From a virus: a stretch of 22,001 bases of DNA. The number at the start of each line of letters is the position of its first letter. The stretch's first letter is position 1. Location: IMG/VR virus record IMGVR_UViG_3300028377_000062, positions 1 through 22,001 of that record. One strand, given 5' to 3'. Of this stretch, positions 507 through 20,081 are shown piece after piece. The notes under the pieces were generated by a model that was not told the DNA's origin, made no database searches, and worked only from the letters and a program-made list of their open reading frames with translations. The position numbers and the translations under genes were made by a program.

Positions 507-2792
507 TCATGCCTCCTTGTGTGCCTGCTCAAATGATTGATACCTTCCTGTCCAGTACATATCCATCCGGCCTAGCGGTCCATCTTTCTGTTTGGCAATC
601 GTTAAATCTGCCATATTAAAATGACTTTCTCCGCAGTCTTTGTTGGTGGCTTTGCATTTCTCGCAGTTTGCCGCGGCACGATATGGAAACAAAATTAAAT
701 CAGCGTCCTGTTCAATTTGTCCTGACTCCCTTAAATGCTCTACTTGCGCTCTGTCTCCAGCCCCTTGCCGTGAGAGTTGAGCAAGAGCAATAACCGGGGC
801 AACCTCTTTTGCTAGTGATTTAAGCTGTCTTGAAATCAGAGAGACCTCCTGAAACCTGCTTTCTGCCTTTGCCGTCATAAGTTGCAGATAGTCAATTACA
901 ATGAAATCAAGTCCGTATTTGATTTTGTGACGTCTGCATCGTTGTTTGAGCTTGGCAACAGATATTGCCGGGGTGTCGTCAATGAAGATTCCAGACTCTT
1001 GCATTTTTGCCGCGGTGTCCGTTATTTCATAAAAGTCTTTAGACTCAAACTTTCCATTCTTGAATTTGTTTAAATCAATCCGTGTTTGTTGGGAAAAGAA
1101 TCGGTCAGTTATGGACTGCTTTGATGTTTCAAGAGATGCAAAATAAACCCTGGCCTTTGATCGTTGCGCTATGTTCAAAGCAAAGGCGGTGTTGTGTGTT
1201 GATATGTAATCATTTGTCAGGTATAGGCTCCTGTCGTGCGAAACTGATATGCACTGGCACTCTTCATTCCCGCACGGTTCGATTGATTCTATGTTTAGTA
1301 ACCGCTGTTTTTTGTCGCTTTGCACCCTCTTCTTTTTATGTGGTATCGTTACAAAATCGGCGTAACCCTTAAAGCTTATATATATACAATAACTCCTCTT
1401 TCCTTTTTCCTTTTTCCCTTTATATTTGTACGTCGGGATTCTGCTTGTCATTGAAGCATATGCACCCAAAGATCTAGCAAGAGTCTGGAAATCAATTGCC
1501 ATCTGCTCGCTAGATGTCGAGTAAGTCATGGACCCGTGTTTTTCTACCGTGCCGTCTGTGTCAATCATTCCCCGCATAAGTTCCAACCTAGACTCTTTTG
1601 ATGCTGATAGATATTGAGCCGGTATGAATTTTTCGTGAGACCTCTTACCAAACAACCCAAACCTTTGAATTGCATCCAGCACACTGTTTGGCTTACCTTT
1701 GTCCGTCCTTATCCTATACGTTATTTTTTGATCTAGGCTCAACGTACACCCACGGAGAAGCGGTTTTATTTTCTCAAGAATATGTTCGTGAGATGTTGTT
1801 ATTTTTACAGAACCACCAGAGAACCCTCCATCACCAAGCAACACTCCAATCAGGTACGGATGCAGCAAAAGATCATTGTCTTTCCCGAAGTCGGCTGAGT
1901 GGTTAGGTATTGAAAGCCTTTTTTTATATCTACTGGTTTCTAGTTTTTCAATTATTTGTGCCGTTGTTAGAATCCTTGGACACGACCAGTCTCTATACAT
2001 GACCTCCCATTGATGCTCAAGGCCAGCGTCTACACATCTTCCGTCACTAAATGTTACCCTATAGATATCTTTTTTCCCTTGAGGGAACACACCTGTGACC
2101 TTTGATTTTTTTCCGTCTATTGATGCTACTTTGTCACCAATCATGATGTCTCCATTTTTTTTAAAGGTTCCATCAGACAATAACACGTTTGAATCCAAAG
2201 TCAATTCTTTTCCCATGCTTGGCCGTCCGGCTAAAACAATTAACTGCTCTTTACATATCCCCCCTGTTTTATAGTCAAGCCAATCATAACCGTATGAGAT
2301 ACCGGCAAGTCCTCTGCCTCGCCTGTATCTCTCCTCATAAGTTTTCATTGACGACCTGGCCATGTCTCCCAAAGAAACCGCCTTACTGTCGCTTGCAAAC
2401 CTGAACAACGTAGCCTCGACCATTTCCATGGCATCTTCTTCACCGGCACACTCTTGGAGTTTCTGACCCAACTTCCTAATGGTTCTCTTTGCCGATGAAC
2501 TTTTGACTGCCTTGACATAATAGGCAATATTTGCAGCGGTAGGAACGTAATCAAGCAGCCCTGCCAGGTAAGAAGATCCACCGCACAACTCGAGGCCACC
2601 GCGCTCTTTCGCTTTGATCGTCAACGTCACCAAGTCAATTGGGGAGTCTGCTTCGGAAAGTTGTTGAATGAATGTCCATATATGCTGATGAGCAACATTA
2701 GCAAAGTCTGCCGCAGTTAATTCGGCTTCGTAATATGCGGCGTTATCCAAAAGGACTGCACCGATGACAGATTTTTCAGCTTCTAAGCTCAT
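507..2792 (-). CDS. dnaB: Replicative DNA helicase DnaB, interrupted by an intein
   Basis: The precursor has 761 residues. Residues 1-195 hold the DnaB N-terminal domain and the start of the RecA-like domain up to the P-loop GRPSMGK (189-195). Residues 196-534 are an intein, and 535-761 resume with T-AFALN and complete GRPSMGKT. Spliced length would be 422 residues, normal for a phage DnaB. Walker B is FIVIDYLQL (Asp634), followed by QLSRQG and the arginine-containing helicase tail IAKQKDGPLG. A C-x2-C-x6-C-x3-H cluster (710-724) sits in the last domain. It unwinds DNA at the phage fork as a hexamer. The start overlaps the initiator gene stop (ATGA), so the two are co-translated. Without splicing the P-loop is broken, so activity should require the intein to leave. 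Confidence 0.95.
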   Translation of the reverse strand: MSLEAEKSVIGAVLLDNAAYYEAELTAADFANVAHQHIWTFIQQLSEADSPIDLVTLTIKAKERGGLELCGGSSYLAGLLDYVPTAANIAYYVKAVKSSSAKRTIRKLGQKLQECAGEEDAMEMVEATLFRFASDSKAVSLGDMARSSMKTYEERYRRGRGLAGISYGYDWLDYKTGGICKEQLIVLAGRPSMGKELTLDSNVLLSDGTFKKNGDIMIGDKVASIDGKKSKVTGVFPQGKKDIYRVTFSDGRCVDAGLEHQWEVMYRDWSCPRILTTAQIIEKLETSRYKKRLSIPNHSADFGKDNDLLLHPYLIGVLLGDGGFSGGSVKITTSHEHILEKIKPLLRGCTLSLDQKITYRIRTDKGKPNSVLDAIQRFGLFGKRSHEKFIPAQYLSASKESRLELMRGMIDTDGTVEKHGSMTYSTSSEQMAIDFQTLARSLGAYASMTSRIPTYKYKGKKEKGKRSYCIYISFKGYADFVTIPHKKKRVQSDKKQRLLNIESIEPCGNEECQCISVSHDRSLYLTNDYISTHNTAFALNIAQRSKARVYFASLETSKQSITDRFFSQQTRIDLNKFKNGKFESKDFYEITDTAAKMQESGIFIDDTPAISVAKLKQRCRRHKIKYGLDFIVIDYLQLMTAKAESRFQEVSLISRQLKSLAKEVAPVIALAQLSRQGAGDRAQVEHLRESGQIEQDADLILFPYRAAANCEKCKATNKDCGESHFNMADLTIAKQKDGPLGRMDMYWTGRYQSFEQAHKEA
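1191..2207 (-). other. Class 3-type intein with LAGLIDADG homing endonuclease in the DnaB P-loop
   Basis: The 339-residue intein runs from Glu196 to Asn534 of the precursor. Block A is recognisable (LTLDSNVLLSDGT), but position 1 is Glu, not Cys/Ser/Ala. Block B reads GRCVDAGLEHQW, with His260 (B:10) and Trp262 (B:12). Block F is ECQCISVS, with Cys514 at the place of F:4. The C-terminus is STHN followed by Thr535. Trp262, Cys514 and Thr532 match the Trp-Cys-Thr signature of class 3 inteins, where the block F Cys attacks the N-terminal splice bond. The endonuclease motifs are LIGVLLGDGG (Asp321) and LMRGMIDTDG (Asp413), both with the catalytic Asp. By eye the segment is more AT-rich than the flanking helicase codons, as expected of a mobile insertion. 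Splicing activity is inferred. Confidence 0.9.
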
Positions 2793-3445
2793 AATGGTGG
2801 CCCCGTGTATGCTTCCATTTTTTTACGATTAGATTCTCGTTCTTCGGTTTTAGTATCCTTTGGGATTTTCTCGGAAGCACGCCGCATCCAGTCCATTAAA
2901 TTCAAGTTCAGATCCATAACCGGTTTGGATGTCTCACGCTTGGTTTTCCACTTCTCGAGCTCAAACTCATAGACAGTTTCCACGCCAGGTAAGAGCCTTA
3001 TGATTTTGTCTTTCATCATCAAGGAAGCTTCTTCGTGCTTGTCTTTCTTTTCATTCTTTTCATTCTTGTTTGTGGTCGTTTGTTGGTCGCTTGTTGGTCG
3101 TTTGTTGGCAGTCTGTTGGTCGTTTTTGTTTTCCTTGATTTGATATTTGTTGTAATTACATATAGTTACAACGGTAAATCTGTTGGTCGATTTGCTGGTC
3201 GTTTCTCCTGTTTTTTTTAGATTTGCTAGAGATGTCCTTACTTGCCTTTCGGTTAAACCTGTTGCTTTTGCGATAGACTTTCTTCCCGTTATTAGCTGTC
3301 CCCTCTTCACGACATTACCCTGCCAAGCCCCATCCGCATGATTTGCAGAAAGTAGTAAATACATAAAAACGGAAAAAGTCTTTTGATCTGTAAACCACTC
3401 CCACTCTATTAGTTTCCTGTGAAGTTTTATGAAACCGTTGTCCAT
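2789..3445 (-). CDS. Phage replication initiator, DnaD/O-like winged-helix protein, 218 aa
   Basis: The chosen start is MDNGFIKLHRKLIEWEWF at 3445, overlapping the previous stop (TAATG) and preceded by GGAG; a longer in-frame version from 3484 only reads back through the upstream gene. The N-terminal 90 residues are the helix-turn-helix domain of phage replication proteins (KRGQLITGRKSIAKATGLTE, then RQVRTSLANLKKTG). A charged low-complexity linker rich in Lys, Asn, Gln and Thr follows, then a C-terminal helical part (VYEFELEKWKTK to the end) that could contact DnaB. It sits directly upstream of dnaB with a 4-base overlap, the usual initiator-loader plus helicase pair. The linker DNA carries an iteron-like array, so the origin may lie inside the gene, as in lambda O. 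The exact family (DnaD-like versus O-like) is uncertain. Confidence 0.75.
   Translation of the reverse strand: MDNGFIKLHRKLIEWEWFTDQKTFSVFMYLLLSANHADGAWQGNVVKRGQLITGRKSIAKATGLTERQVRTSLANLKKTGETTSKSTNRFTVVTICNYNKYQIKENKNDQQTANKRPTSDQQTTTNKNEKNEKKDKHEEASLMMKDKIIRLLPGVETVYEFELEKWKTKRETSKPVMDLNLNLMDWMRRASEKIPKDTKTEERESNRKKMEAYTGPPL
3071..3201 (-). repeat. Iteron-like repeats, candidate replication origin
   Basis: Plus-strand TGTTGGTCG or a close variant begins at 3071 (TGTGGTCG), 3081, 3092, 3103 (TGTTGGCAG), 3114, 3181 and 3193 (TGCTGGTCG). The four starts from 3081 to 3114 are spaced exactly 11 bp apart, about one helical turn. Because 11 is not a multiple of three, the repeats are read in changing frames, so DNA rather than protein repetition seems to be conserved. 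An AT-rich stretch (3122-3180) separates the two groups. The array lies in the linker of the initiator gene, the same arrangement as the lambda origin inside O. Origin function is inference. Confidence 0.6.
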
Positions 3446-3642
3446 TACAACTGCTCCATCGTCCCGTCTGGGTGACAGAGGCAAAGGACAAGAGGCTTGT
3501 CTGTATACTCTTGTATGTATGCTGAGCGGTCTTTAATTTTAGCCAGCGCGTGGGCTGATTCGATCGCCAGTGCGAGAGTTAAATATTTCTTGCGGGGAAT
3601 GTTGCGGTTTGTCAGAAAGACAGTGTAGAAAGGTGGTTGCAT
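3445..3642 (-). CDS. Small hypothetical phage protein, 65 aa
   Basis: The start is MQPPFYTVFLTNRN at 3642, with GGAG six bases upstream; a longer version would need a TTG inside the ribosome binding site. The product looks like a small alpha/beta protein (AIESAHALAKIKDRSAYIQ, then LCLCHPDGTMEQL). It is the first gene behind the promoter at 3782-3809 and its stop overlaps the start of the replication initiator. Small proteins of this kind are common ahead of replication genes in phages, but I do not recognise this one. No catalytic motif is visible. Confidence 0.65.
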   Translation of the reverse strand: MQPPFYTVFLTNRNIPRKKYLTLALAIESAHALAKIKDRSAYIQEYTDKPLVLCLCHPDGTMEQL

Positions 3643-3662
3643 TATAGTCTCCAAAAAAGTTA

Positions 3663-3707
3663 AGCCAGATGCCCCAGGATGATAACGGCATCCATGGAAC
3701 TCTGGCT
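3663..3707 (-). promoter_or_regulatory. Structured 5' leader hairpin before the replication genes
   Basis: Arms AGCCAGA (3663-3669) and TCTGGCT (3701-3707) can pair over seven bases, and inside them GATGCC (3668-3673) can pair with GGCATC (3687-3692), partly as an alternative. This is in the roughly 130-base untranslated leader between the promoter at 3782-3809 and the start at 3642. No U-tract follows, so it does not look like an intrinsic terminator. A role in mRNA stability or translational control is possible but unproven. Confidence 0.4.
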
Positions 3708-3781
3708 AGACTGGTTCTAAAAACTATTTACAAGTGACGCGCCCCGTTATGGCCTGATCACTCTATGTTTAAGACACCTTC

Positions 3782-3809
3782 AGTATACTTGTTGTGCGGT
3801 GGAAGTCAA
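3782..3809 (-). promoter_or_regulatory. Sigma70-type promoter for the replication operon
   Basis: On the minus strand, TTGACT (3804-3809) and TATACT (3782-3787) are separated by 16 bases, each one mismatch from consensus. The -35 element overlaps the stop codon of the upstream HTH-like gene. The promoter points at the 65-residue protein, the replication initiator and dnaB. The -10 sits in a small palindrome (AGTATACT) that could be part of an operator. Confidence 0.65.
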
Positions 3810-4051
3810 GACTTTGTGCTAAACTTCCAAAGATAGTTGTGAAAGCCATTATCCCCAATTCTAAAACCGTCAGGCTTTATATTAACAAACATCTCCGCAT
3901 GTCTGACAAGCCGGTATGCCTGTCTATTTGTTATGTGGTATCTGTTCATTAGGCACCGCATAGTAAAAGCTTTCCCATTAAAGTGGAGAATAAAATCGAT
4001 CCCTTTTTGTACACCAGAAAGCGTATTTTCCCTATTCCAACTTGTTCCCAT
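3806..4051 (-). CDS. Small HTH-like DNA-binding protein, 81 aa
   Basis: The start MGTSWNRENTLSG at 4051 is chosen because GGAGG lies five bases upstream; the ATG at 4063 would sit before that site. The middle (FTMRCLMNRYHITNRQAYR and the following LVRHAEMF) reads as a helix-turn-helix, with a sharp turn at HITNRQ. The C-terminus (FRIGDNGFHNYLWKFSTKS) resembles a wing. It lies between the DNA methyltransferase and the second early promoter, whose -35 overlaps its stop codon, so autoregulation or control of the replication operon is conceivable. The exact family is not recognised. Confidence 0.6.
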   Translation of the reverse strand: MGTSWNRENTLSGVQKGIDFILHFNGKAFTMRCLMNRYHITNRQAYRLVRHAEMFVNIKPDGFRIGDNGFHNYLWKFSTKS

Positions 4052-4090
4052 TGCTACCTCCATTATTGATAGCTCTCAAGCTCTCTGCTG

Positions 4091-4735
4091 TTAAAAAAGT
4101 CTTAGTTGCTTCTGGGCTTCTTCGACACGTCGGCAACCAGCATCAAAATAGTCCTCATCAATTTCATAACAGGTGATTTTAAAGCCCATATTCAGGCAAG
4201 CTATCACGCTACTCATTGAGCCGCCGTGGGTGTCTAGGATGTGGTCGCCTTCCTTTGCATAATTCTTTAATAGCCATGTGTAGAGGTTGACTGGTTTCTG
4301 TGTTGGGTGGATCTTTCCGGAGTAATCTCGCCTCGCTAACGGGTCATAAGAAAATATCTTTACATTCGCGTCAAATGAAGTCCATGCAAGCTCCGCTTCT
4401 GCATATGTGCGGCCCTTAAACCCTGCCCCTTTATCCCACACAATGAAACAGCGTGAAGGTGGCAAAGTAAAATAGTTCCCACCCCATACAACCTGGTTAC
4501 TGCTCTTTTTTAAGAGGAGGTCAAAATATGATTTTGGTGTCGGCTTACTGTCCCAACTCTTTTTTGCTAGGTTATTGTCACCTTTGTACCCGACGTTCCC
4601 GCCGTCCATACCTATCCCGTAGCAAGGGTCAACGATAGCAAGGTCAAACTGATTCTCCGTCATCTCGGCCATTGCCTCTTCACAGCAACCGCAGATTAGA
4701 GTCGCATCCCCTATCACTTCTTTTCTTATTGCCAT
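4091..4735 (-). CDS. Phage DNA adenine-type methyltransferase (beta class)
   Basis: The 214-residue protein has the motif order of beta-class N6-adenine/N4-cytosine methyltransferases. The catalytic motif IV comes first (IVDPCYGIGMDGG, Asp36-Tyr39), then a variable region, then HPTQKP (143-148), and last the AdoMet-binding motif I region (ILDTHGGSMSSVIAC, Asp168). Motif IV is DPCY instead of the usual DPPY, and motif I has THGGS for the common PFxGSG, so both are diverged. It probably methylates phage DNA, either to evade host restriction or to time gene expression. No restriction partner is adjacent. The start overlaps the end of ninG by ten bases. Target sequence cannot be read from the protein. 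Confidence 0.88.
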   Translation of the reverse strand: MAIRKEVIGDATLICGCCEEAMAEMTENQFDLAIVDPCYGIGMDGGNVGYKGDNNLAKKSWDSKPTPKSYFDLLLKKSSNQVVWGGNYFTLPPSRCFIVWDKGAGFKGRTYAEAELAWTSFDANVKIFSYDPLARRDYSGKIHPTQKPVNLYTWLLKNYAKEGDHILDTHGGSMSSVIACLNMGFKITCYEIDEDYFDAGCRRVEEAQKQLRLF

Positions 4736-5304
4736 GACGTAAGCTTTCTGCTGTTCTCTGCTACCATGCGGTTGACTATCTCAAGATACTTCTTTTTGAT
4801 CGCAACGTAATCTGATACTTGATATTTAATCGGTTCGTGTGGGCCTTCCAGCCATTCGACTTTATCAACGCCGATCTTCTTCACCAGTGCAATCCGATAT
4901 TCTCCGATGTTTCCAGACAACTCCAGGTTACACCGCTTGTTACATTGTTTATTGGTATTGAATTCGTTGAACGCGAGGGCTGACACGGCCCCTCTTGAAC
5001 GATAGTGGCCAGCGCAATAGACAACATCCTTTGTTGTCCCGCAACTGATACAGGGCAATTTAGCGTCCCGAAGCCGTATGAACTGATTAAAGTATTTCTG
5101 CGCCAGGTTCTTCTGTGTTTTTTTGTCGTTAAGCTTGAACTCAGCCCGGTCGCGCGCAAGATCTTTCGCGGCCTTTTTGGCCTTTTTTTGTTTGTCGTAT
5201 GCGATAGAGCAAAAAGTCGAACAACACGTCTGCAAAGAGTTCCAGGGTTGAAATTTATTCCCGCACGCTCTGCATTTTTTCGGCTTGAGTGGTTTAATTT
5301 TCAT
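4726..5304 (-). CDS. ninG: NinG/Rap-like recombination protein
   Basis: The start MKIKPLKPKKCRACGNKF at 5304 is supported by GGGAGGATGTA just upstream; the ATG at 5382 reads back through that site. The 192-residue length matches the lambda NinG family (about 200). Visible are an N-terminal zinc-finger-like Cys set (C11-x2-C14, C27/C28, C32), a Lys/Arg-rich helical middle, C85-x2-C88, the family motif AGHYRSRGA (98-106), and Cys121/Cys125. NinG/Rap is a DNA-junction endonuclease that acts with phage recombination functions on Holliday junctions and D-loops. The gene lies downstream of the ERF and exonuclease genes in the same direction, consistent with one recombination module. Confidence 0.9.
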   Translation of the reverse strand: MKIKPLKPKKCRACGNKFQPWNSLQTCCSTFCSIAYDKQKKAKKAAKDLARDRAEFKLNDKKTQKNLAQKYFNQFIRLRDAKLPCISCGTTKDVVYCAGHYRSRGAVSALAFNEFNTNKQCNKRCNLELSGNIGEYRIALVKKIGVDKVEWLEGPHEPIKYQVSDYVAIKKKYLEIVNRMVAENSRKLTSWQ

Positions 5305-5333
5305 TACATCCTCCCTACTGGTTAAGGCCAGTG

Positions 5334-5669
5334 TTAAACAAGCGTCATTTCTGCACGTCTCGTTGATTGTGAAGTTCTCCATATATCTGTGCGCGTCTGT
5401 AAGCCCTTGTAGGCCATCTTTAATGACTCAGCCTTCACCGTTGCATCAAAGTAGTCTGACAGCCATTTGTCGTATTCTGGTGACGCATAGGCTTCTCGCT
5501 CTTGACCGGCTGCCGACTTCACGCCTTTAACTTCTTCGGCCTTTCTCATCTGCAACGCAATAATGGCTTTCTTCTTTTCTTTTAAATGCTCAAGGGTCGC
5601 AATAGCCTCTGGCAGTTCGGAACGGATCTTTTCAAGTTCCTCTGCGTAAAACTTTGAAGGGTCAGTCAT
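5334..5669 (-). CDS. Coiled-coil hypothetical phage protein, 111 aa
   Basis: The product is mostly helical: an N-terminal helix (MTDPSKFYAEELEKIRSELP), a coiled-coil stretch with Leu/Ile heptads around residues 20-45, and a second helix around 60-90. Its ATG overlaps the stop of the Cys-rich 52-residue gene (ATGA), indicating translational coupling. It lies between the recombination genes and ninG. No catalytic motif is visible and I do not recognise the family; a structural or accessory role in recombination is only suggested by position. Confidence 0.65.
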   Translation of the reverse strand: MTDPSKFYAEELEKIRSELPEAIATLEHLKEKKKAIIALQMRKAEEVKGVKSAAGQEREAYASPEYDKWLSDYFDATVKAESLKMAYKGLQTRTDIWRTSQSTRRAEMTLV

Positions 5670-5824
5670 ACCGCAAACTCACAGCCGACGCAGTCCTTGC
5701 GTAGCTTCGTCTGTAGGCACAAAATACATTTTTCTTTTCTGTTGGCCTCGTGCATGTACTGCCTTTCCATCACCCTGTCGTATTTGTATGATTCCATAAT
5801 TTGTGTGAGATCTGGCTGCTTCAT
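5666..5824 (-). CDS. Small Cys-rich (zinc-ribbon-like) protein, 52 aa
   Basis: This short gene has GAGGAG six bases before the ATG at 5824, and its stop overlaps the next gene's start (ATGA). The product begins MKQPDLTQIMESYKYDRV and ends with two CxxC pairs, EKCILC and DCVGC, spaced like a zinc ribbon. Such small zinc-binding proteins are frequent in phage recombination and replication blocks. Function unknown, but the coupling, ribosome binding site and paired cysteines make it a convincing gene. Confidence 0.65.
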   Translation of the reverse strand: MKQPDLTQIMESYKYDRVMERQYMHEANRKEKCILCLQTKLRKDCVGCEFAV

Positions 5825-13488: not shown

Positions 13489-15201
13489 TTATTGGAATAT
13501 TATACCATTGTTGGTGACGGTATTTATTGCCTGAGATAGTGTGCCCGGTGTTAAGTATGCATTGATGGTTGAGCCATTGAGCGCGTAGATGCCATAGGTT
13601 CCGGCACCTGAGGCGTCTGCTGTGGTTGCATTGATGGTTGAGCCTTTGTACGCGACGAAGCCACCGGTTCCGGCATCGGAGGCGTTTGCTCCATCCGCAT
13701 TGATGGTTGAGCCATTGGACGCGTAGATGCCATTGGTTCCGGCACCTGAGGCGTCTGCTGTGGTTGCATTGATGGTTGAGCCTCTGGACGCGGAGATGCC
13801 ATAGGCTCCGGCACTGGAGGGGTTTGCTCCTTCCGCACTGATGGTTGAGCCGTTGTACGCGTAGATGCCATTGGTTCCGGCACCTGAGGCGTTTGCTCCA
13901 TCCGCATTGATGGTTGAGCCATTGAGCGCGTGGATGCCATTGGATCCGGCACCTGAGGCGTTGGCTGCGTATGCATTGATGGTTGAGCCGTTGGCCGCGT
14001 AGATGCCATTGGTTCCGGCATCATTTACTCCTCCTCCAGCAATAATGTCCGCCGAGCTTCCAGCGCCTACAGACATGATACCGTGCTTATTGCCGCCTAC
14101 GTTCGCGACATTAAACCGAAACAACTGACCAATCCGGGGGAGAACGCCGCCCTTGGAGACACCAAAAGCGGGATAAGAACCAAACCCATAATCCGCTGTA
14201 GTAAAATCAGTGGTCAGTGCGGTATGGGTAATTGTGGTTTCAGCATCCGCGCCCGTAATCGTGATCCAGCCAAGATTAAGCCCTCGAACCAGCACCTGCT
14301 CCGCCATTGTGAATCCGGCCAGCAGGTTGATCGTTGCTGTGATGCCTGCACTGTCGTAGAGCGGCTGTAGCTTGCTCAGATACTCAAGAGCCGCGTTGAT
14401 TGTCGGATAGTCTCCGCCGGTGCCGACAGTTACGGTTATATTAGCAGATTGCAGGCTGGCTTTGCCGCTTAAATCTTGATCCCCCGTATTCGTCCCGCTT
14501 AGGTTAGGGGCTGTAAATGAAGCTGAAGAGGTAAGGTTTCCGGTAGAAGATACAGAAATTCTAGCATCATAATCAGCATCTGAACCTATGTCATGGAAGT
14601 CAAGATATTTACCTATCTCGGTAACACTTACATTACCTCCCGCAAATGTCTTTATAAAATCAGAGCTATCTAAACCATCCAGTGTTCCTGCATCAATATT
14701 AAGGGCATCGATATCTGCTTTAGTTTGATCGCCCGTATTCGTTCCGCTTAGATTGGGAGCTGATATGTTGCCTGAAAACGCCTGCCCGGAGATAGCGGCC
14801 TTGGCGTCTACTTCCGCCCGCGTAGGTGCAAGCTCCCAATTCACACCGCCGTCAGTATCGGGGTCAGAACTTCCGTCACCGCCAGAATTCAACCGGTAAA
14901 TCCCGGCCAGAGTAGTGACCACTGAGCCCTCGTAATACTCCTGATTCGTATTCCATTCGGCAATTCCCCTCTGATGCAAATACGCAATCAGCTGACCGAG
15001 CGTAAACGCAAGGCCGTTAAAATCCTGTTTGGCCGGGTTTTCGTTTACGCCGACAACCCCCCAGCCGCGCAGAAAGTCTGCCGTAATGTTGGCGTCAAGC
15101 GTGTCGGACTGCGCAGTATCTCCAAAAATTGTGCGCTCAGTACTCAGCGCATCTGCAGCAAACGCTTCCATGTTTCCGCTGTATCTATCAATTTTTGCCA
15201 T
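13489..15201 (-). CDS. Tail fibre/receptor-binding protein with beta-helix repeats, 570 aa
   Basis: The N-terminal 140 residues likely attach to the baseplate (LGQLIAYLHQRGIAEWNTNQ and the following EYYEGSVV carbohydrate-binding-like stretch). The segment SAPNLSGTNTGDQ and a near copy FTAPNLSGTNTGDQ flank a shaft-like region (about residues 140-250). Residues 255-390 include a pectate-lyase-like start (VGTGGDYPTINAALEYLSKL), typical of right-handed beta-helix fibres. Residues 393-547 are seven 23-residue repeats of the type NGIYAxNGSTINAxxANASG. The gene follows the DUF2612-like gene with a TAATG overlap. It probably binds the host surface; the repeats would form coils of a beta helix. Confidence 0.85.
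   Translation of the reverse strand: MAKIDRYSGNMEAFAADALSTERTIFGDTAQSDTLDANITADFLRGWGVVGVNENPAKQDFNGLAFTLGQLIAYLHQRGIAEWNTNQEYYEGSVVTTLAGIYRLNSGGDGSSDPDTDGGVNWELAPTRAEVDAKAAISGQAFSGNISAPNLSGTNTGDQTKADIDALNIDAGTLDGLDSSDFIKTFAGGNVSVTEIGKYLDFHDIGSDADYDARISVSSTGNLTSSASFTAPNLSGTNTGDQDLSGKASLQSANITVTVGTGGDYPTINAALEYLSKLQPLYDSAGITATINLLAGFTMAEQVLVRGLNLGWITITGADAETTITHTALTTDFTTADYGFGSYPAFGVSKGGVLPRIGQLFRFNVANVGGNKHGIMSVGAGSSADIIAGGGVNDAGTNGIYAANGSTINAYAANASGAGSNGIHALNGSTINADGANASGAGTNGIYAYNGSTISAEGANPSSAGAYGISASRGSTINATTADASGAGTNGIYASNGSTINADGANASDAGTGGFVAYKGSTINATTADASGAGTYGIYALNGSTINAYLTPGTLSQAINTVTNNGIIFQ
13561..14025 (-). repeat. Seven 69-bp tandem repeats in the tail fibre gene
   Basis: The plus-strand anchor A(T/C)TGATGGTTGAGCC begins at 13561, 13630, 13699, 13768, 13837, 13906 and 13975, exactly 69 bp apart each time. 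Each unit encodes 23 residues with the core GSTINA or GSTISA. Internal sub-sequences alternate between a TTADASGAG-type and a DGANASGAG-type, giving a mosaic. Copy-number change and shuffling by recombination are expected. Confidence 0.9.
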
Positions 15202-18901: not shown

Positions 18902-19236
18902 AATGCCACCTCTGTTCCTCTGATCAGTTCCATCTCCCCGGCTTCGAGCATGTAAATATCACAGCGCCCGGAGCTGAAATCCTGGCGCTGGAACGGATCA
19001 ATTCCGTTTCCGCTGCGGTCAATACAGATAAAATCAAAGGGTTGATTCTGGCTGAGCATGTGCAATACTCCGAGGGACATCTTCAGGCCGTAAACCTGCT
19101 TACCGCCAAACGCCGCATCAAACATCCATATTTGAGTGCGCGGGTAAAATCGCAGCGTGAAGATGATCTCTGCCTTTTCAAACAAGATCGTGTGCCGCTG
19201 GATAGGCTCATCTGTTATGTTCTGTATTCGTCTCAT
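18898..19236 (-). CDS. Baseplate plug-like protein, 112 aa
   Basis: The ATG at 19236 overlaps the Dit-like stop (ATGA); a GTG at 19248 is less likely. The protein contains EIIFTLRFYPRTQIWMFDA, VYGLKMSLGVLHMLSQNQPF, DPFQRQDFSSGRCDIYMLEA and GEMELIRG. This resembles the small plug protein (DUF6983-like) of minimal contractile baseplates, such as cyanophage Pam3, and the place between the Dit-like and hub genes agrees. Assigned from memory of the family pattern, not from a search. Confidence 0.7.
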   Translation of the reverse strand: MRRIQNITDEPIQRHTILFEKAEIIFTLRFYPRTQIWMFDAAFGGKQVYGLKMSLGVLHMLSQNQPFDFICIDRSGNGIDPFQRQDFSSGRCDIYMLEAGEMELIRGTEVAF

Positions 19237-20081
19237 TCTGGAATCCACCCAAACAGTTGCCCCAAATTGGTAGACAAGCTCTCTTCCACTTCCTCACCTT
19301 CCTGCGTCCCTTTGTCAGTTTCCCCGTCTGTCTGCCCAGCCGTGGCAATGGCTGCGTTCTGAGCGGGCCCAGCCGTGGCAATGGCTGCGTTCTGAGCGGC
19401 GCTAGTCTTCATAGAAACAGTCTGAGCAAAACGGATCTCTTGCGCTTCGAGGGTAAAGTTAATTGCTCGGTTTTGATTGTCGCGAGTAACTTCCAGCGAG
19501 GTGATATACATATTTTCAAATGACCCCAAAGAAGAGCTTATCTTTATTCTCTTGTCAGATGCCTGCAATCCCTTCATTGCGGCAAGAAAACTCTCGATAT
19601 TGCGTGTCGTTTCTTTATCTTGGTTCCCGAGGTATTTCGCCGCACCCTGTGCCGATGAGATTAGCGCATCAGCTTTATCCATTGCGCTCGTGAAGTCATT
19701 GACCAGCCCTGAAACTCTGCTTAGCTGCGCCTGTGTTCTGGCGGGTGCATACTGCGTGATGTTTCCGATCTGCGCTTGATGTTCCTGCAATATCGCAACT
19801 GGCTCACTCGGTAGCACAAAAAGGTCAGAGACGTTCCCCTCGATGCTGAGGGTGATAGGCTCGCGAATGATGTGGTCATTGACGTGGCTGCCGTTCTCAA
19901 GATACGTGACCGGGACGGATGCGCGGCGCTTGAATTTTTCGCTTATCTGTGCAAAGGCCGTAAAGCCGCCAATGCCGACCTCTTCGCCGTCCTTGCCGTC
20001 GTTCTCAAACTGGCCGTTTATGTAGTCGCGGATGCCGCCGGTGTTTTTTGCGTAGTCTGTCAACTCTCCGATTAGCGCCAT
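19233..20081 (-). CDS. Dit-like tail protein, 282 aa
   Basis: The N-terminal half resembles Dit-like/DUF6046-like tail proteins: FKRRASVPVTYLENGSHVND, then HIIREPITLSIEGNVSD, and a long helix around residues 105-170. The second half includes ISSSLGSFENMYITSLEVTR and INFTLEAQEIRFAQTVSMKT. The C-terminus is low complexity (two copies of PAQNAAIATAG-like sequence, then an acidic GETDKGTQEGEEVEES). It starts with TAATG after the tape measure gene. Probably a ring between tail tube and baseplate. Confidence 0.7.
   Translation of the reverse strand: MALIGELTDYAKNTGGIRDYINGQFENDGKDGEEVGIGGFTAFAQISEKFKRRASVPVTYLENGSHVNDHIIREPITLSIEGNVSDLFVLPSEPVAILQEHQAQIGNITQYAPARTQAQLSRVSGLVNDFTSAMDKADALISSAQGAAKYLGNQDKETTRNIESFLAAMKGLQASDKRIKISSSLGSFENMYITSLEVTRDNQNRAINFTLEAQEIRFAQTVSMKTSAAQNAAIATAGPAQNAAIATAGQTDGETDKGTQEGEEVEESLSTNLGQLFGWIPE
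19334..19399 (-). repeat. Perfect 33-bp tandem duplication
   Basis: Bases 19334-19366 and 19367-19399 are identical. They encode an 11-residue unit (PAQNAAIATAG) repeated in frame in the C-terminus of the Dit-like protein; the first unit differs only at its joining residue. Perfect identity points to a recent slippage or recombination event. Confidence 0.9.

Follow-up and report, generated by a model that had tools for sequence, protein, structure and literature searches.

Class 3 inteins are defined by the absence of a nucleophile at residue 1 and by a WCT signature at positions B:12, F:4, and G:5 (PMC3196547, PMC5050341, and PMC7891396), and their splicing pathway is established (PMC5222942). 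Among described members, M. smegmatis DnaBi1 and M. chimaera MchDnaB1 (structures 6bs8 and 6rix) compare most directly with the intein reported here, which lies on the 22,001-bp virus record IMGVR_UViG_3300028377_000062 (probably a fragment), referred to below as the window. Both are likewise class 3 inteins placed after the DnaB P-loop GK, and they share with the window intein the His65/Trp67 numbering (PMC6195587 and PMC7664689), a THN end, and a TMt of about 0.8. They are, however, mini-inteins without an endonuclease that begin with Ala1 (DnaBi1 also has Asp62 and Ser+1), whereas the window intein has Glu1, Gly62, a full LAGLIDADG domain, and Thr+1. Mycobacteriophage terminase inteins, such as Gaia TerL1-e, which has been shown to splice (PMC5050341), combine class 3 membership with LAGLIDADG, WCT, and THN as the window intein does, but Gaia TerL1-e is only 25% identical to it, pairs Ala1 with Asp at B:7, and resides in a terminase. 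In the DnaB-like protein AEW24538.1 of Escherichia phage TL-2011a (L024, JQ011316.1), the RPGMGK/T site (the slash marks the insertion point here and below), WCT, THN, and Thr+1 all recur, yet the intein is 37-39% identical to that of the window and has Ala1 with Ala at B:7. AEW24538.1, from an EHEC-associated phage, is annotated as hypothetical and bears a class 3 intein. PI-SceI (yeast VMA) has the same combination of a HINT domain with a two-motif LAGLIDADG endonuclease but is a class 1 intein with a Cys1 nucleophile and is 454 residues long compared with 339.

The window intein interrupts a dnaB-like replicative helicase gene at positions 507-2792 (minus strand, as for all features of this gene), whose 761-residue precursor matches Pfam DnaB and DnaB_C as well as TIGR00665. 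Read directly from the translation, the gene consists of a 195-residue N-extein ending in the Walker A sequence AGRPSMGK (2208-2792), a 339-residue intein corresponding to precursor residues 196-534 (1191-2207), and a C-extein of 227 residues plus stop (507-1190), which opens with Thr+1 and the second half of Walker A, TAFAL. The flanks of the insert match DnaB_N (E 1e-24) and DnaB_C (E 4e-68) in Pfam, and the joined exteins amount to 422 residues. The insert is in frame and splits Walker A exactly between Lys and Thr, reading LAGRPSMGK/ELTLDS...YISTHN/TAFALNIA. Because intein-free DnaBs from other phage contigs run straight through the same point (ARPSMGK/TTFAMN), both intein boundaries are fixed by homology and are not arbitrary. 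The insertion point, GRPSMGK/TAFAL, is that of the DnaB-b (P-loop) intein allele. The original prediction, made from the letters of the window alone, had placed a 339-residue insert at 1191-2207 with Glu first after GRPSMGK and His-Asn last before Thr, and these coordinates were reproduced exactly.

All four sequence features of class 3 were found in the insert, namely Glu1, Trp at B:12, Cys at F:4, and Thr at G:5. Residue 1 (2205-2207) is Glu, a non-nucleophile that is common to six DnaB relatives. His65 (precursor His260; 2013-2015) occupies B:10, is invariant among relatives, and is predicted to be catalytic, with Trp67 (precursor Trp262; 2007-2009) two residues past it at B:12. Cys319 (precursor Cys514; 1251-1253), which is predicted to start splicing as the nucleophile and to be the first branch point, stands 20 residues ahead of Asn339 and is followed by I-S-V. 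It is invariant at F:4 across a 12-row alignment, and an alternative placement, which the prediction had named as the outcome that would count against it, was not seen. The intein ends in Thr337-His338-Asn339 (1191-1199), of which Thr337 (precursor Thr532) supplies the T of WCT and Asn339 is predicted to cyclise, and the adjoining Thr+1 (1188-1190), the Walker A Thr of DnaB, is the predicted acceptor for the second branched intermediate. The earlier placements of Trp262 two residues beyond the block B His, of Cys514 at F:4, and of Thr532 ahead of the final His-Asn were thus all borne out, and the assignment to class 3 within the DnaB P-loop is supported by every defining feature that a sequence can test. 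As to monophyly with the other class 3 inteins, a tree of splicing domains covering 111 class 3 rows and no class 1 outgroup showed few supported forks.

Two further residues had gone unmentioned in the original prediction. The block B motif AGLEHQW puts Gly62 at B:7 (2022-2024), where M. smegmatis DnaBi1 has Asp62. A second cysteine, Cys317 (precursor Cys512), lies two residues ahead of Cys319 and was rejected as the F:4 residue on the basis of the C-I-S-V spacing and of a relative (L013) that has Ala317 yet keeps Cys319.

As the nucleophile at residue 1 is likewise absent from class 2 inteins, it could be argued that Thr+1 attacks the N-terminal junction directly and that Cys319 is incidental. 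However, the members of class 2 are orthologues of KlbA that begin with Ala1 and have Ser at G:6 (PMC4031507), whereas the window intein sits in a DnaB host, begins with Glu1, has His at G:6, and retains both a complete WCT and an invariant Cys319. A class 2-like route therefore appears exceedingly improbable, and the class 3 reading is retained in what follows.

An AlphaFold2 model built from the 12-row alignment reached a mean pLDDT of 93.4, and its best Foldseek matches were to PI-SceI, the model falling on full-length PI-SceI with an E value of 3e-18. The HINT part of the model covers the class 3 DnaB inteins 6bs8 (TMt 0.82) and 6rix (TMt 0.79) in the same search, and the architecture, as modelled, is that of a PI-SceI-like HINT domain combined with LAGLIDADG. 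A search of solved structures with the C-terminal 60 residues by themselves returned nothing relevant. The PI-SceI-like LAGLIDADG homing endonuclease domain spans intein residues of about 112-290 (1338-1874), as delimited by Pfam LAGLIDADG_3 and Hom_end, a PI-SceI profile match (E 1e-20), and Foldseek. Asp126 in motif 1 (LIGVLLGDGG; 1830-1832) aligns with LGLWIGDG of PI-SceI, and Asp218 in motif 2 (LMRGMIDTDG; 1554-1556) aligns with GLIDSDG. Both motifs are intact, in keeping with what had been proposed.

Relatives of the window intein at the same DnaB GK/T site, with Glu1, Gly62, WCT, THN, and LAGLIDADG, were found on six viral contigs (L002, L003, L013, L004, L005, and L016). Against the window, the inteins of these six are 52-70% identical and the DnaB exteins only 27-42%, a gap that points to horizontal movement of the intein. 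The clearest pair is L004 (positions 3335-5764) and the same region of L005, in which the inteins differ at 2 of 1029 nucleotides and the exteins at 65 of 1401 (4.6% for the dnaB genes), and identity decreases away from the insert, being down to about 75-85% at more than about 700 bp upstream. To judge from the alignment, this is the signature that recent homing with co-conversion would leave. Estimates of dN/dS on the endonuclease were mostly uninformative because dS was saturated between most relatives. A search with the N-extein over viral contigs did not recover a close relative of the window's phage helicase, and a search of genome contigs with the intein gave only a single weak HEN match. 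The tape measure and baseplate proteins of the window are 35-42% identical to those of small Vibrio myoviruses, such as VBM1, and no closely related phage was found.

An alternative is that the intein has decayed, keeping its signature but having lost splicing or endonuclease activity; the pseudogene Arth_1007 of Arthrobacter FB24 is such a case. Decay is documented in class 3 (PMC3196547), and the window is a lone 22-kb metagenomic virus record. Arth_1007, however, lost both Cys F:4 and His B:10, which the window intein keeps; its frame is free of stops and frameshifts, none of the relatives departs from it at a signature residue, and a dead intein within the P-loop would cost the phage its helicase. 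Decay is accordingly considered very unlikely. The original prediction had called the intein active; activity would be in line with the open frame, the invariant catalytic residues, and the recent mobility in the relative pair.

Taken together, the evidence makes it very probable that the window encodes a full-length class 3 intein, HINT plus LAGLIDADG, at the GK/T junction (P-loop, DnaB-b) of a phage replicative helicase, which would splice and home as follows. His65 and Thr337 would activate Cys319 (F:4), which would attack the Lys-Glu1 peptide bond, and the N-extein would be held on Cys319 as a thioester before its transfer to Thr+1. Asn339 would then cyclise, and an acyl shift would join the exteins to give the 422-residue helicase with an intact Walker A, GRPSMGKT; Glu1 would play no nucleophile role. 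Because Thr+1 is also the Walker A Thr, ATP binding by the unspliced helicase precursor should be impossible until splicing has taken place. The endonuclease would carry the intein gene between phage dnaB alleles, and the near-identical inteins in the diverging helicases of this DnaB clade offer a natural system for class 3 homing between phages.

The prediction had further implied that a Glu1 intein of class 3 beside a functional-looking endonuclease is rare, and this was not supported. A survey of 1701 class 3 inteins found LAGLIDADG motifs in 82.5% (PMC7891396), so that endonuclease-bearing members are common. In a tblastn search, relatives of the window intein turned up in 765 phage records, not necessarily all of class 3. 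A sample was taken from viral contigs picked by three block G patterns, and not by residue 1; requiring a clean GK-type junction, HxW in block B, and Cys in block F left 192 distinct inteins. Residue 1 among these is Ala in 118, Met in 15, Ser in 11, Glu and Leu in 10 each, Gly in 8, Cys in 6, and Asp in 5, with others making up the remainder. Glu1 is thus a recurring minority (10 of 192, about 5%), and its rarity was rejected on samples selected on block G only. Some WCT-complete class 3 inteins (L059, L063, L114, and L139, and L056, L087, L106, L126, L144, and L146) open with Cys1 or Ser1, and a potential nucleophile at residue 1 can, judging by these loci, coexist with the class 3 signature.

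The identity of residue 1 was found to be coupled to that of B:7. Among the first 111 inteins compared, all those with Glu1 had Gly at B:7 and none with Ala1 did. As this set had been partly fetched with the AGLEHQW pattern, the recount was confined to the three block G pattern samples. Gly at B:7 accompanies Ala1 in 0 of 118 inteins, Glu1 in 10 of 10, and non-Ala residues in 34 of 74, and Gly1 is paired with Asp in 8 of 8 (Fisher p 2e-17 for Ala1 versus Gly and 9e-9 for Glu1 versus Gly, over the 192 inteins). The two samples of the three that were drawn after the hypothesis had been formed each repeat the coupling (p 0.003 and 2e-7). Across 54 splicing-block positions, mutual information with residue 1 is highest at B:7 (z 19.8, with the runner-up at 6.1), and side-chain volumes at the two positions are anticorrelated (Spearman -0.65). 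The partners of Ala1 at B:7 are Cys, Asp, Ser, or Thr. Exceptions, in which Met1, Leu1, Lys1, Gln1, or Val1 is paired with a B:7 residue that is Cys, Ser, or Ala, come mostly from the Ser+1 sample, and the occasional rule-breakers with Met1, Leu1, or Val1 mean that size alone cannot be the whole story. Named phages agree by eye, with Ala1/Asp in Gaia TerL, Ser1/Asp in Napoleon13 gp211, and Asp1/Gly in Thibault TerL, the junctions of the latter two also having been placed by eye.

Such a pattern could reflect shared ancestry and not a structural constraint, if two or more old lineages had separately inherited Ala1 with a B:7 side chain and a bulky residue 1 with Gly. After correction for the tree, independent pairs run almost entirely in the expected direction (about 4 concordant and 0 discordant), but they fall short of significance (median p 0.125) because the splicing-domain tree is poorly resolved and leaves too few pairs on supported branches. 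Ancestry alone does not readily account for the far weaker ties to residue 1 of other columns with the same history (z of at most 6.1 versus 19.8), for the recurrence of the coupling in three separately drawn samples, or for the constant pairing of Gly1 with Asp. On the best, though poorly resolved, tree, Glu1 needs 11 changes and Gly at B:7 needs 29, which also speaks against a few old lineages. Ancestry as the source of the coupling is thus regarded as rather unlikely.

Structural constraint is compatible with what has been described for the N-terminal junction. In crystal structures of other class 3 inteins, Asp62 (B:7) lies near Ala1 (PMC6195587), and in AceL NrdHF the B:7 residue Ser65 is close enough to hydrogen-bond with the carbonyl of Ala1 and with the amide of the scissile bond (PMC7891396). 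PMC7891396 also reports that A1G abolishes splicing, that functional class 3 inteins may have either Gly or Asp at B:7, and that B:7 is not conserved. The side chains of residue 1 and B:7 may occupy a single small space next to the scissile bond at the N-terminal junction, and Glu1 would be accommodated in the window intein because Gly62 at B:7 leaves room for a bulky residue 1. More generally, there could be two interchangeable designs of the N-terminal junction, one with Ala1 and a B:7 side chain that supports the bond, and the other with Glu1 or another bulky residue 1 and Gly, where the side chain of residue 1 would itself fill the space and do the job of B:7. The window DnaB clade would belong to the second, and the pair would have co-evolved many times; we give this proposal about even chances. 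No mention of a link between residue 1 and B:7 was found in the passages of the class 3 literature that were covered, and the regularity is apparently previously undescribed.

The window intein is one more phage example of a well-described class, and the useful part is the rule relating residue 1 to B:7. If structural, the coupling would explain the Glu1 start and predict which residues a class 3 intein accepts at position 1. It would also give a way to test what B:7, whose role is unsettled, does during the first acyl transfer.

Several other features were noted elsewhere in the window. In the DnaD/O-like replication gene adjoining dnaB, an 11-bp unit (GTTTGTTGGTC) is repeated 5.4 times at 3068-3125; by analogy with gene O of lambdoid phages, which carries iterons, these repeats are possibly replication-origin iterons. 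A DNA methyltransferase gene (N6_N4_Mtase; PADLOC MTase_II) occupies 4091-4735 on the minus strand, and the genes searched yielded no restriction partner for it. A tail-fibre-like protein is encoded at 13489-15201 (minus strand), within which a 69-bp unit (23 residues) is repeated 6.7 times in tandem at 13558-14020, with a higher-order period of 207 bp. Finally, a perfect 33-bp direct duplication was seen at 19334-19399, within a predicted tail gene at 19233-20081.
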